Below, one piece after another: positions 23,315 to 27,796 of a stretch of DNA of 37,999 bases. The translations under genes and the position numbers were made by a program. The notes under the pieces were generated by a model, which was not told the origin of the DNA, ran no database searches, and was given only the letters and a program-made list of their open reading frames with translations. Within the stretch, counting starts at the first letter, position 1. Each line of letters begins with the position of its first letter. Source of the DNA: Acidimicrobiaceae bacterium (GTDB lineage Bacteria; Actinomycetota; Acidimicrobiia; Acidimicrobiales; RAAP-2); contig PLON01000046.1 of assembly GCA_003142095.1 (NCBI GenBank), positions 22,277 through 60,275 of the forward strand, in the 5' to 3' direction.

Positions 23315-23955
23315 ATCCGCACAAGACCCTTACCTACCACATCTGTGCGGGGATTGTGCGTGGTCTCGCGAGGATCTTCTTTCGCCCGACGGTCGTTGGA
23401 GCAGACAACATTCCTCTGACGGGACCGGTACTCATTGCCCCGATCCACCGTTCCAATGTGGACTTCGCCTTCAGCTTGTTCATCTCGCCGCGCAAGATCT
23501 TCTTCATGGCGAAAGACGGCGTGTTCCATCCGGCCATCGTCGGCGCACTGCTTATCCGCCTGGGCGCATTTCCCGTCAACCGCAACAGCGCCGACCGAGA
23601 ATCGATGCGTCTCTCCGAAGAGGTTCTTAGGCGTGGACAGGCGCTCCTACTGTTTCCCGAAGGTACGCGTAAGTCGGGCACCTCTGTTGAGGCGTTGCAC
23701 GACGGCGTCGTCTTCATCGCGGCGAGAACCGGAGCGAAGATCGTGCCCGTCGGAATTGCCGGTAGCGAACGGGCTATGCCCGTCGGAGCGAAGATCCCGA
23801 GGTTCACGAAGATTCAGATCGTGGTCGGAAAACCCATCGATCCGCCCGCCAACGAGGGGCGCGTCTCACGTTCTCAGATTACGGAAAAAACGGAAGAACT
23901 GCGCCAGGAGTTAGAAGCGGTCTACGCCGAAAGTCGCCGACGCCTCGGGAACTAA
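23287..23955 (+). CDS. 1-acyl-glycerol-3-phosphate acyltransferase (PlsC family)
   Basis: A 222-residue membrane-associated acyltransferase for phospholipid synthesis. The catalytic HX4D is H54-D59 (IHRSNVDF) and the glycerol-phosphate-binding motif FPEGTR is at 123-128. An N-terminal amphipathic/hydrophobic helix (YHICAGIVRGLARIFF) may attach it to the membrane. The cmk-plsC order is common in bacteria. It ends with a 4-nt tail-to-tail overlap (CTAA) with the GT2 gene on the other strand. Confidence 0.9.
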   Translation: MPEASDLVLNPHKTLTYHICAGIVRGLARIFFRPTVVGADNIPLTGPVLIAPIHRSNVDFAFSLFISPRKIFFMAKDGVFHPAIVGALLIRLGAFPVNRNSADRESMRLSEEVLRRGQALLLFPEGTRKSGTSVEALHDGVVFIAARTGAKIVPVGIAGSERAMPVGAKIPRFTKIQIVVGKPIDPPANEGRVSRSQITEKTEELRQELEAVYAESRRRLGN

Positions 23956-24752
23956 CGTTCGCGCCACCACGTGCCAAAGACGACGCGGGCGTAGCGAAAC
24001 CCGAAGAGCCAGTTCTTGCCCTTCTTGGTGGTACCCGAGGCCCTCGGGTACCAGACGGTTGGTACTTCGCTGGCCCGCCATCCGCGCTTGAGCGACGTAA
24101 TCAGTAGTTCCGCAGTTTGGTACTGCTCTTGCGTGAGTCGGTCCACCACGTCGGCCAACATGGTCACGCGCAGCGCGCGGTATCCCGTCGAGGTGTCCGT
24201 CAAGTTCGCCCCGGTCATCCGGTTCATGACAAAAGAAAAGAAGTGCACCCCGGTCTTACGCACGACGTCGGTGGTCTTGTCCTCACCGAGCACGCGACTC
24301 GCGACGACGAAGTCAGCCTGGTCGGCGATGAGGGGTGCAAGAAGGTTCGAGATTTCCTGCGGGTCATTCTGGCCGTCAGCGTCGAGCGTCACGACGTACT
24401 TCACGCCGTGTTCGACGCAGTAGCGATACGTGACCTGTAGCGCCACGCCGTGGCCGAGATTGACGGGAAACTCAAAGACCTTGACGCCGGGAAACGATCG
24501 CGCGATCTCCGCGGTCTGGTCGGTGCCGCCGTCAACGACCACGAAGGTTGTGTACGGCCTGCCGGCGACGGTGCCGGGCATCTTTTTCAAGACGTCGCCG
24601 ATGTTGCCCTCTTCTTCGTACGCGCAGATCGACGCCACGATGTCCTCCGGGACGAAGTCGGGGTAGTCGGCATCAAAGCGAGCACGGGCCTGCGCAATGG
24701 CGAAGTCGCGTAACCGCGCGATGCGCCGCTTTTCGAGGTCCTCGTTCGACAT
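23952..24752 (-). CDS. Family 2 glycosyltransferase (polyprenyl-phosphate sugar synthase-like)
   Basis: A 266-residue soluble GT-A enzyme. It has SICAYEEEGNIGDVLKKMP, TTFVVVDGGTDQTAE, the DxD-type metal site in VTLDADGQNDPQEI and a later acceptor region with MNRMTGANLTDTSTGYRALR. This resembles dolichyl/polyprenyl-phosphate mannose or glucose synthases without C-terminal TM helices; the exact sugar is unknown. The ATG at 24752 follows AAGGAG with good spacing; a TTG one codon earlier is in frame. It is last in the ispH-HD-GT2 series and starts 8 nt after the HD gene stop. Confidence 0.82.
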   Translation of the reverse strand: MSNEDLEKRRIARLRDFAIAQARARFDADYPDFVPEDIVASICAYEEEGNIGDVLKKMPGTVAGRPYTTFVVVDGGTDQTAEIARSFPGVKVFEFPVNLGHGVALQVTYRYCVEHGVKYVVTLDADGQNDPQEISNLLAPLIADQADFVVASRVLGEDKTTDVVRKTGVHFFSFVMNRMTGANLTDTSTGYRALRVTMLADVVDRLTQEQYQTAELLITSLKRGWRASEVPTVWYPRASGTTKKGKNWLFGFRYARVVFGTWWRER

Positions 24753-24760
24753 CAATCTCC

Positions 24761-25306
24761 TTAAATCGAGTGGGCTTGGGAAAACACCTGAACCACCATC
24801 GGTTCAAAGTGCTCCAACGTTTCAACCGGGTAGTCCGGATCAAACGCCTTTTGGTCCCACTGGTCGGCGAAACGCTCGGCCAGTTGGTACCACGGTTGGC
24901 CGCGGTGTTGATCGCGCAGATTCGGATCCATTCCGATGTGCTCGTAGTAGTAGCGACCTTGGAAGTCTTGGTGGTACGCGACCATGCAGTAGACATCGTG
25001 GCGAACGTAGGACTTCAGGATCTCGGCCGCGATTTTCGGGTGATTCGGTACGGAGATCAGCTTGCCCACGTCGTGCAGAAGTGAAGCCACAATGACCTCT
25101 TCGTCGGCCCCGTCGCGCTCGGCGCGGGTCGCGGTCTGCAGAGCGTGCTGCATCTGATCAATGGAGAAACCATCGCTAATGGTTGAAAGTCCCCTCACCA
25201 TGTCGAGGAGCTGGCGCGCAACCCGGGGCTGGGCCTCAATCGTTCGTTCGACGATCTCCATCCACTGCTCGCGCGTGGAGACGTCCATGCTGAGAAACGA
25301 AGTCAC
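24761..25306 (-). CDS. HD-domain protein, possible diiron oxygenase (PhnZ/TmpB-like)
   Basis: A 181-residue protein with the HD signature: H54 (MQHALQTAT), H78-D79 (SLLHDVGK), H89 (VPNHPKI), H112 (VAYHQDFQ) and D151 (DQWDQKAFDPDY). The set H, HD, H, H, D and the C-terminal YPVETLEHFEPM remind me of the HD oxygenase group (PhnZ, TmpB, myo-inositol oxygenase) more than of plain phosphohydrolases. This is recollection of family patterns, not a search result, and a metal-dependent phosphohydrolase is the alternative. The start is GTG at 25306; an ATG at 25288 is possible and neither has a strong ribosome-binding site. It lies between ispH (36 nt upstream) and GT2 (8 nt downstream). Confidence 0.7.
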   Translation of the reverse strand: MTSFLSMDVSTREQWMEIVERTIEAQPRVARQLLDMVRGLSTISDGFSIDQMQHALQTATRAERDGADEEVIVASLLHDVGKLISVPNHPKIAAEILKSYVRHDVYCMVAYHQDFQGRYYYEHIGMDPNLRDQHRGQPWYQLAERFADQWDQKAFDPDYPVETLEHFEPMVVQVFSQAHSI

Positions 25307-25342
25307 CGAGCGAGTCTACTAGCGGCCTTTGGCGCTTCGCGA

Positions 25343-26371
25343 TTACGCCGAGATCACTTCTGCGGCGGTGAAATCGCGATCGGCCTGTCCGTCGAAGTTC
25401 GTCGTGACGGGCGTCGCGAAGACGACGTCCACAAGAGCCGTCAGGGCCTTCAATATCTCGCGCAACTCAGGCGGGGGAGGGAAGTACTCGTCTTCGATGG
25501 TGACCGAGAAGACCGTGATGCCGTCCTTGGGCGTGAGGTACGCCAGCACTTCGTTGACGAGAACTTCAGGCGCGGACGCTCCGGCGGTCACGGCAACGAT
25601 TCCCGAGAGATCATCGGGCAGCTCGTCTGCTCCGTTGACGCGCAACACGCGCGGACAGCCTTCGGCTTCGGCCACGTGGGTGAGGGCCACCGTATTGGAC
25701 GAGTTCGCTGATCCGATCACGATCACGGCGTCGGCCTCTGGGGCGATCTGGCGCAGGGCCGCTTGGCGATTGGTAGTCGCGAAACAGAGGTCACTACGAT
25801 TCGGCATCCAGATATCGGGGAAGACGACTTCGGCGTACTCGCGTAGGTCCTGCCACTCGTCGAGGCTGAGCGTCGTCTGGCTGAGCAGCGCTACCGGACC
25901 CTTGTGATCAATAAGGGCGTCTATATCGGCACGCGACTGCACGAGGTGCACCGCCTCGGGGGCGACCGCCATTGTGCCAACCGCTTCCTCGTGATCTTCG
26001 TGTCCCACGTAGAGCACCGTGTAGCCCTTGTTGGCCCGCACTTTCAGCTCGTGGTGCACCTTCGTCACGAGGGGACATACGGCGTCGATGACTGTTCCAC
26101 CGGTTCGCCGGGCGGCGTCGACGACCTCGGGGGGCGATCCGTGGGCACTCAGCATGATGGGCGCTCCCGAGGGAACGATGGTGACATCGTCGATAAAGAT
26201 GACACCCACGGACTTGAAGTGATCGACCACAAACTGGTTGTGCACGATCTCGTGGTAGCAGTACACCGGAGGTTCGAAGACGCGCGTCATCCAATCGAGC
26301 GCTTTAATTGCCTTTTCGACACCGGCGCAAAAGCCCCGCGGGGCTGCCAGCACAACCTTGTCAACCGTCAC
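25343..26371 (-). CDS. ispH: 4-hydroxy-3-methylbut-2-enyl diphosphate reductase
   Basis: The last MEP pathway enzyme: a [4Fe-4S] protein producing IPP and DMAPP. The three cluster cysteines are C15 (APRGFCAGVEKA), C99 (DAVCPLVTKVHHE) and C196 (SDLCFATTNRQ). Other conserved parts are HEIVHN, SAHGSPPEV, GHEDHEEAVGT and SANSSNTVAL. The start is GTG at 26371 with GGAG just upstream; the divergent DUF512 gene starts 48 nt away, so both promoters must share this short gap. It heads the ispH-HD-GT2 unit. Confidence 0.96.
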   Translation of the reverse strand: MTVDKVVLAAPRGFCAGVEKAIKALDWMTRVFEPPVYCYHEIVHNQFVVDHFKSVGVIFIDDVTIVPSGAPIMLSAHGSPPEVVDAARRTGGTVIDAVCPLVTKVHHELKVRANKGYTVLYVGHEDHEEAVGTMAVAPEAVHLVQSRADIDALIDHKGPVALLSQTTLSLDEWQDLREYAEVVFPDIWMPNRSDLCFATTNRQAALRQIAPEADAVIVIGSANSSNTVALTHVAEAEGCPRVLRVNGADELPDDLSGIVAVTAGASAPEVLVNEVLAYLTPKDGITVFSVTIEDEYFPPPPELREILKALTALVDVVFATPVTTNFDGQADRDFTAAEVISA

Positions 26372-26419
26372 GGCTCCAGCCTAGTAACCCAACTTTGCTG
26401 TAGTCCCTAGGCTAGAGAG

Positions 26420-27796
26420 GTGTCCGGGGCCCGTATTTCCTCTATCTCAGCGGGTTCGCCGGCTTCGAGCGTCGATCTCGCGGTGGGCGACGAACTGGTA
26501 AGCGTCAATGGGGTGGCCCCGACGGACATCATCGAGTATCAACAGTTGATTGACGGAAGTCTCGTTACGCTCGTGGTGCGTCGCGACGCCGAAGATCTCT
26601 CGCGCAAGGTGACCATCTCCAAAGACGAAGGTCAGCCCCTCGGTCTCAGCATCGATTCCGCGGTTTTCGACCGGATTCGCACCTGCGACAACCACTGCAC
26701 GTTCTGCTTCATCTATCAACTGCCCAAGGGCATGCGCCGGTCGCTCTACGTCAAAGACGACGACTTTCGCCTTTCCTTTTTGTACGGCAACTACACCACC
26801 CTAACTCGTTTCACTGAATTCGACCTCGAACGCATCCTCGATGAAGGACTGTCGCCGCTCTACGTGTCCATCCACTCGACGAACCCGCACTTGCGCGCCG
26901 ACATGCTGCGCAATCCTCGCGGCGCCACGAGTCTGCGTTGGCTGCGCGAACTGCTGCGTGCCGGCGTGGAAGTTCACGGGCAAGTGGTCGTGTGCCCTGG
27001 TGTGAATGACGGCGCCGAGCTGGAACGCACGCTCTACGACGTCATGTCGCTCTACCCCGAGCTAGCGTCAGTGGCACTCGTGCCCGTCGGCATCAGCGAT
27101 TTCACGAACGAAGAGTCGATGCGAGCGCACGAACCCGGTGAAGCTCGCCACGTCGTGGCATTGGCCGAACGTTTTCAACGCCTCACGCGAGAACTACTGG
27201 GTCGGGCCAAGGTCTTTGCCAGCGACGAGTTCTACATCGTCGCTGGGATCGATCCGCCCGGCACCGAAAGCTTCGAGAGCCTCGACGAGGCGGAAAACGG
27301 CGTGGGACTCGTCGCGGCCTTCGCTGAAAGCTTTCGCGAGGGAACGGCCATGACCAAATTGGGTTCGGGCTTCTTTCAGTCCGTCGACGGGGCCCCGGCC
27401 ATGGGGTACCGCGCACCGAGAACACTCGAGGATCGCGACGCCGCTGGCGATGACGTCACCGTCTTCACGGGTGAATACGCCGCGCCGATCCTGCGTCGAC
27501 TCTTCGACGAGCAGGGATTTGGCGACGTCGAGGTGAAGGCCGTGAAGAATCGGTATTTCGGCGGCAACATCAAGGTCGCCGGACTCATGACGGGTCTCGA
27601 TCTGCGCTCGGCGCTGAGTGACGTCGACCAGTCAACTCTCTGTCTCGTCCCTGACGTCTGTCTCTCTGAGGGCCGCTTTCTGGACGGTCTGACGCTGGAT
27701 GACCTGCCGCGGTCGGTCATGACAGTACCAACGACGGGTCACGATCTGCGCTCCACCCTGGAACGTGTGCGGGCCCGAGGATTGAGTCGAGCGTGA
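26420..27796 (+). CDS. PDZ-like / radical SAM / DUF512 protein
   Basis: A 458-residue three-part protein: an N-terminal PDZ-like segment (ISSISAGSPASSVDLAVGDELVSVNG, residues 6-31), a radical SAM core with the cluster motif C89-x3-C93-x2-C96 (RTCDNHCTFCF), and a C-terminal DUF512 domain from about residue 250. The PDZ-radical SAM-DUF512 architecture next to der is widely conserved, which suggests a link to ribosome assembly or RNA modification, but I know of no established reaction. The C-terminal part ends with VPTTGHDLRSTLERVRARG. The GTG start at 26420 follows a GAGAG; the stop overlaps der as GTGA. Confidence 0.85.
   Translation: MSGARISSISAGSPASSVDLAVGDELVSVNGVAPTDIIEYQQLIDGSLVTLVVRRDAEDLSRKVTISKDEGQPLGLSIDSAVFDRIRTCDNHCTFCFIYQLPKGMRRSLYVKDDDFRLSFLYGNYTTLTRFTEFDLERILDEGLSPLYVSIHSTNPHLRADMLRNPRGATSLRWLRELLRAGVEVHGQVVVCPGVNDGAELERTLYDVMSLYPELASVALVPVGISDFTNEESMRAHEPGEARHVVALAERFQRLTRELLGRAKVFASDEFYIVAGIDPPGTESFESLDEAENGVGLVAAFAESFREGTAMTKLGSGFFQSVDGAPAMGYRAPRTLEDRDAAGDDVTVFTGEYAAPILRRLFDEQGFGDVEVKAVKNRYFGGNIKVAGLMTGLDLRSALSDVDQSTLCLVPDVCLSEGRFLDGLTLDDLPRSVMTVPTTGHDLRSTLERVRARGLSRA

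Follow-up and report, generated by a model that had tools for sequence, protein, structure and literature searches.

Only three HD oxygenases, MIOX (myo-inositol oxygenase), PhnZ and TmpB, are named in the portion of a 2020 review considered here (PMC8177086), and the portion of a later paper that we used adds variants of PhnZ (PMC10574752). According to the same part of the review, a YxxE loop is typical of PhnZ and TmpB, while an arginine at the third position ahead of the first histidine is conserved in HD phosphohydrolases; the H..HD..H..H..D set occurs in some hydrolases too, among them YqeK, in which two more histidines are present. Here, we describe a gene for an HD protein that lies between ispH and a gene for a GT2 glycosyltransferase in a stretch of 37,999 nucleotides (nt) from an Acidimicrobiaceae bacterium (contig PLON01000046.1), the whole of which we call the window. 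On balance, we lean towards the protein being a diiron-type HD oxygenase with the PhnZ fold, belonging to a clade marked by lysine at position 82 (K82) and acting as an accessory catabolic enzyme on a small hydroxylated metabolite other than an aminophosphonate. The gene was located by an open reading frame (ORF) call:

24761-25306, minus strand: HD protein (181 amino acids, GTG start)

As the initial annotation had claimed, the protein contains H54, H78-D79, H89, H112 and D151, in the ligand order H...HD...H...H...D of the HD-domain diiron oxygenases (PMC8177086). These six residues are invariant in the 20 aligned orthologues (20/20) and in 116/116 rows of the wider family, which we aligned together with 20 PhnZ-like rows from the same order and of which three duplicate others (L141, L142 and L151). 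The invariance is partly built in, since 70-odd of the 116 rows come from a scan whose peptide patterns already specify the HD pair, a first histidine accompanied by LQTAT, and either K or D at position 82; H89, H112, D151 and Q116 lie outside these patterns.

The AlphaFold2 model of the protein, made with 20 orthologues, has a mean pLDDT of 94.7. A Foldseek search against the PDB returned 10 chains at E ≤0.001, seven of PhnZ and three of TmpB with no others, so the best structural matches are not plain phosphohydrolases. In VIA-align, the overlay that had been suggested as a check, the Z-scores were 18.4 for PhnZ (PDB 4n6w, 4n71, 4mlm, 4mln), 17.7 for TmpB (6npa), and 12.2 and 11.3 for MIOX (2huo, 2ibn), above the plain HD hydrolases, since the best other HD protein reached 8.8. 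The superposition on PhnZ has a root-mean-square deviation of 2.9-3.0 over 153 residues at 26% identity. Thus, the modelled fold and the ligand set both agree with the proposal of an HD oxygenase-like metal set and favour the oxygenase branch, and from the two together the protein is predicted to bind two metals, which would be iron. The C-terminal region, also described as resembling PhnZ and TmpB, fared unevenly, as its likeness to PhnZ falls short of significance in the sequence comparison (2.6 bits) but appears in the fold alignment, in which residues 25-178 of the model lie on residues 4-188 of PhnZ.

Profile searches gave genuine matches, though short of curated cut-offs. PDB sequence matches are to PhnZ (7.2e-9) and TmpB (8.4e-5), and the NCBIfam matches, all below their cut-offs, are to TIGR03276 Phn-HD (1.6e-14 over residues 46-112; 53.9 bits, cut-off 214.6), TmpB (2.8e-8; 33.7 bits, cut-off 300) and HMP dioxygenase (28.5 bits, cut-off 300). 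Pfam PF05153 (MIOX) gives 23.1 bits, below its cut-off of 25 and over residues 46-86 only, and the best Pfam match is the generic HD family (7.9e-6). The name of TIGR03276 was considered as a sign of phosphonate function and dropped; Phn-HD-like proteins form a separate clade in our tree. Among defence-system models, a weak Cas10 match to the HD protein (0.0009) was put down to the shared HD domain, and none matched the GT2 protein.

Comparison residue by residue sets the protein apart from its closest characterised relatives. With PhnZ, the 2-amino-1-hydroxyethylphosphonate oxygenase, it shares the fold, the six ligands (similarly spaced in the first half), Q57, and Q51, the last of which is found in 11/20 PhnZ-like rows. 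In contrast, it has F47, with no glutamate at the YxxE position, Q116 for a lysine that is invariant among PhnZ-like relatives, and K82 where these mostly have H. The same contrast extends to the whole family: the YxxE glutamate E47 is present in 20/20 PhnZ-like rows and in 0/116 family rows (F or Y in 116/116), and position 116 is K in 20/20 of the former and Q in 116/116 of the latter. TmpB is alike in fold and ligand set, but its substrate-site residues differ from those of our protein in the same way as those of PhnZ, and no TmpA-type partner adjoins the gene. Given these replacements, and given that two PhnZ-like proteins already occupy phosphonate loci of the same genome, the protein is, as judged from its sequence, not a PhnZ or a TmpB. 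As for MIOX, the fold core is shared, and H-x-x-Q-T-A and HD-x-G-K align, K82 falling on a MIOX lysine, in a sequence alignment that is not significant (E 0.91). The MIOX chains in the PDB have 241-258 residues, compared with 181 here, and only 10 residues separate D79 from H89, a stretch whose counterpart in MIOX is much longer.

The 116 family rows consist of 33 with Q51 and K82 and 83 with R51 and D82. In a tree of 131 rows (leaving out L141, L142, L151, L160 and Phn_L184), the PhnZ-like, D and K rows form separate groups with supports of 100/99, 95/91 and 93/78, the last being below our star threshold and the K/D split being partly shaped by the scan patterns. On this tree, the HD protein belongs to its own K82 clade, sister to a wide D82 clade. 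The K clade consists of Acidimicrobiia records plus one from Gemmatimonadaceae, and the D clade occurs in many phyla, including Proteobacteria, SAR11 and SAR86 records. In a literature search limited to the titles and abstract openings of open-licence papers, we recognised nothing that treats either clade. Two metagenome bins titled Bifidobacterium breve (L064 and L067) group with Acidimicrobiia in the tree, and the former has the same ispH gene order; both labels look wrong.

If the protein is such an oxygenase, it would most likely use O2 to cleave a C-C (or another C-X) bond adjacent to a hydroxyl group in a small metabolite, and the substrate would not be an aminophosphonate. By analogy with MIOX, it would probably need no dedicated hydroxylase partner. 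Its role would probably be accessory and catabolic, as an enzyme kept under purifying selection and lost repeatedly in the genus, and its place beside ispH and the GT2 gene would reflect an old gene order plus a transcript shared by the HD and GT2 genes rather than a common pathway. No hydroxylase pairing was seen in the K-clade loci. Three genomes, all of family f7, have the K-clade HD gene flanked by genes for a sugar-acid-dehydratase-like protein of the enolase superfamily on one side and a deaminase-like amidohydrolase on the other, and the fullest case also has a sugar-type ABC transporter; these enolase and amidohydrolase neighbours point to small-molecule catabolism.

The D clade presents a different picture. 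Among 135 of the 145 genes adjoining D-clade HD genes, Pfam identified six TauD, four PhyH, eight class II aldolase and four Mpo1-like members, and 9/10 of the TauD and PhyH genes are on the HD strand, at distances of -18 to 147 nt from the HD gene. An alpha-ketoglutarate hydroxylase gene adjoins the HD gene on the same strand at L084, L087, L094, L124 and L156 (TauD) and at L069, L092, L100 and L114 (PhyH). We regard these pairs as candidate new two-step oxidation pathways. For comparison, among 140 genes at least three places from D-clade HD genes, neither TauD nor PhyH was among the 25 Pfam families listed, each with at least two members, and a search of these distant neighbours with our own models found one of each. 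The Pfam comparison is the fairer control, as our own models were seeded on HD-adjacent genes, so that the p of 0.001 obtained with them is biased. Hydroxylase pairing is thus real in some lineages but not general. A neighbour of the D-clade HD gene in four Pseudomonas loci (L093, L103, L104 and L130) encodes an Mpo1-like protein (2-hydroxy fatty acid dioxygenase).

More tentatively still, the K82 clade may be a new partner-free HD oxygenase of Acidimicrobiia that carries out MIOX-like C-C cleavage of a polyol-, cyclitol- or sugar-acid-like substrate on a PhnZ-sized scaffold, while D82 enzymes may act on substrates pre-hydroxylated in part by TauD or PhyH proteins; this remains a doubtful proposal. 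If a partner-free K82 clade and a D82 clade working with hydroxylases were both real, the known HD oxygenase chemistry would be at least doubled. Spread over Actinomycetota, Proteobacteria, SAR11 and SAR86 records, the two clades keep the ligands and fold but differ in substrate-site residues, which makes them direct candidates for new reactions; the operons that combine a D-clade HD gene with a hydroxylase gene offer concrete starting points.

Several observations weigh against a diiron oxygenase of this kind. In the Foldseek search, several plain HD proteins had better E-values (0.07-0.09) than MIOX (0.27), so that the link to MIOX is drawn from the VIA Z-scores. R51, the phosphohydrolase mark, is present in 83/83 D-clade rows, making a hydrolase ancestry possible. 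The adjacency of hydroxylases relative to distant neighbours has a p of 0.018 with our own counts, or 0.10 in the worst case, with two of each assumed beyond the Pfam families listed, and only D-clade loci (10/79) show the association. Finally, one genome (G204) has a gene for a phosphonate-binding-like protein (Pfam 6.1e-19; TIGR01098 2.6e-10 and PhnD 6.1e-8, both below cut-off) 28 nt downstream of a K-clade HD gene, on the same strand.

The most serious alternative is that the protein hydrolyses a nucleotide or phosphoester as a two-metal HD phosphohydrolase and resembles an oxygenase in shape through common descent. Most HD proteins are hydrolases, and the generic Pfam match, the arginine of the sister D clade and the occurrence of the same ligand set in hydrolases such as YqeK (PMC8177086, in the part considered) would all fit. 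Nevertheless, this arginine is replaced by Q51 in 33/33 K-clade rows, PhnZ, TmpB and MIOX outrank all hydrolases by VIA Z-score, and some D-clade relatives are paired with hydroxylases, and we therefore consider a phosphohydrolase unlikely.

A second possibility is a divergent phosphonate-cleaving enzyme, equivalent to PhnZ or TmpB in function. These two are its closest characterised relatives, and the phosphonate-binding-like neighbour of the one K-clade gene mentioned above leans the same way. However, the E47 and K116 of PhnZ-like rows are replaced in 116/116 family rows, and the role appears to be filled by two other HD proteins of the genome, which match TIGR03276 with 193.2 and 141.4 bits (both below the cut-off of 214.6) and are encoded in phosphonate loci:

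G000:C34 (L319): PhnZ-like HD protein, phosphonate locus
G000:C41 (L196): PhnZ-like HD protein, phosphonate locus

One of these loci has PhnE, PhnC and PhnM (above cut-offs) together with PhnL- and PhnK-like proteins (below cut-offs), and the other lies near a phosphonatase-like hydrolase (205.1, cut-off 218.9). No PhnY- or TmpA-type hydroxylase, the partner that the initial annotation had suggested looking for, was found by Pfam or NCBIfam among the searched ORFs flanking the HD gene, nor was there any PhyH (PhnY-type) match in the genome at 1e-10; its sole TauD lies elsewhere and is closest to taurine dioxygenase. In relatives, PhyH genes adjoin PhnZ-like genes in G005, G006, G016, G017 and G027 (by coordinates), and the presence of PhyH does not track that of the HD gene (9/14 PhyH genomes with a full-length HD gene, 5/14 without). 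Thus, the phosphonate-related step read from the neighbourhood is not supported, although that one K-clade neighbour leans towards it, and we judge a phosphonate-cleaving function quite improbable.

The remaining features of the locus are as follows:

25343-26371, minus strand: ispH, 4-hydroxy-3-methylbut-2-enyl diphosphate reductase (342 amino acids; LYTB 7.4e-76; TIGR00216)
23952-24755, minus strand: GT2 glycosyltransferase, resembling polyprenyl-phosphate-sugar synthases in its family matches (267 amino acids; Pfam Glycos_transf_2 6.7e-20)
25313-25318, minus strand: TAGACT, a -10-like box at positions -12 to -7 relative to the HD start codon (from the sequence and the upstream regions of relatives)

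Pfam and NCBIfam searches back the identities of ispH, which TIGR00216 scores at 249.2 bits (cut-off 187.85), and of the GT2 gene, whose nearest NCBIfam models are polyprenyl-phosphate and dolichyl-phosphate sugar synthases, all below cut-off (PpgS 1.2e-22, AglJ 3.7e-20). The ORF coordinates bear out the described row of three genes, with 36 nt between ispH and the HD gene and 8 nt (GT2 ATG at 24752) or 5 nt (TTG at 24755) between the HD and GT2 genes; plsC and a DUF512-type radical SAM gene, divergent from ispH, flank them. These gaps had been taken to favour co-transcription, which stands for the HD and GT2 genes but is weakened for ispH and the HD gene by the conserved -10-like box between them. 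Among 25 full-length upstream regions of the 29 genus loci with a full-length HD gene (in the other four, two starts were unrecognised and two regions were shorter), TANNNT is found in 22, compared with 2.1 in shuffles, with T at -7 in 25/25 and A at -11 in 24/25; TAGACT of the window stands in the same register. A sigma-70 promoter scan of the region found no complete site (0 versus 0.5 expected), so the evidence for the box is the comparison among relatives. Its spacing fits a transcript that starts at the HD start codon, which suggests a separate, leaderless HD-GT2 transcript. The box is still present before the GT2 gene in several relatives without the HD gene.

Within a genus sample of 80 genomes, 76 had an ispH match and the locus was examined in 74. 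A full-length HD gene was present in 29/74, always between ispH and the GT2 gene (29/29). The GT2 gene adjoins ispH in 43/45 loci without a full-length HD gene, with one contig-end piece and one case with none in the fetched stretch, and also in a genome from another family (G044) that lacks the HD gene. Of 22 distinct K-clade loci from other genera, 14 have ispH on the same strand upstream of the HD gene, with a spacing of about 20 to 1,814 nt, and 8 have no ispH beside it, two of these being known with 1.5-kb flanks only; the GT2 gene follows the HD gene in 2/22 and is missing in 20/22, at odds with a conserved HD-GT2 pairing. The long housekeeping order tyrA-aroA-cmk-plsC-ispH-radical SAM-der is itself conserved around K-clade loci, so that adjacency to the HD gene can be plain inherited order. 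Co-transcription with ispH was considered as proof of a shared pathway and dropped; the -10-like box lies between the two genes. The constant ispH-HD-GT2 order in the genus and the frequent upstream ispH outside it are what could be said for a step of isoprenoid or polyprenyl-glycolipid metabolism shared with IspH and the GT2 protein, the lipid step first read from these neighbours, but the GT2 gene stays where the HD gene is lost and the HD gene mostly occurs without it outside the genus, and this is the reading to which we give the least credence.

Where it is kept, the HD gene is under purifying selection. Six computable pairs of intact genes have ratios of nonsynonymous to synonymous rates (dN/dS) of 0.03, 0.03, 0.03, 0.07, 0.09 and 0.12, and two saturated pairs have ratios of the corresponding proportions (pN/pS) of 0.12 and 0.17. 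Remnants of the gene give dN/dS of 0.54 and 0.69 against their nearest intact relatives, where the GT2 gene has a pN/pS of 0.09, and 0.16, 0.17 and 0.20 against more distant ones, with pN/pS of 0.19 and 0.33 in two saturated pairs. Pieces detectable by BLAST are kept in six genomes (G005, G007, G023, G361, G365 and G381), and one of the 45 loci without a full-length gene (G357) has a near full-length copy with broken frames in both the HD and GT2 genes, probably an assembly fault. On an ispH plus GT2 tree of 68 rows, the presence of the HD gene changes at least 15 times, nine of which are forced by starred branches; the scars make losses likelier than gains, and the gene has been lost repeatedly in the genus.

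What is left behind is often an open frame. A frame that is open from close to the former HD start almost up to the GT2 gene is present in 27/40 HD-less gaps (three gaps of <60 nt excluded), compared with 10.2 expected from single-base shuffles, in genomes that are related to one another. Such a frame may be useful, perhaps for translational coupling to the GT2 gene, and the repeated losses that left it provide a natural record of gene decay under a putative leaderless promoter. Scars between ispH and the GT2 gene at L028, L029, L285, L286, L311 and others are often open and end 5-14 nt before the GT2 gene. A frame of exactly 35 amino acids, with little shared sequence, precedes the GT2 gene at L050, L051, L052, L302, L303 and L305 (genomes G025, G030, G009, G368, G360 and G392).

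Genome size does not differ with the presence of the HD gene in the genus (means, from rounded sizes, of 2.01 Mb with it and 2.09 Mb without it, p 0.33). A tRNA search of the window and an Rfam search of positions 23800-26500 gave no matches. About 2 kb to the left of the window, there is a second IspH-like frame (G000:C63:19246-20097), which is 44% identical to the window ispH.

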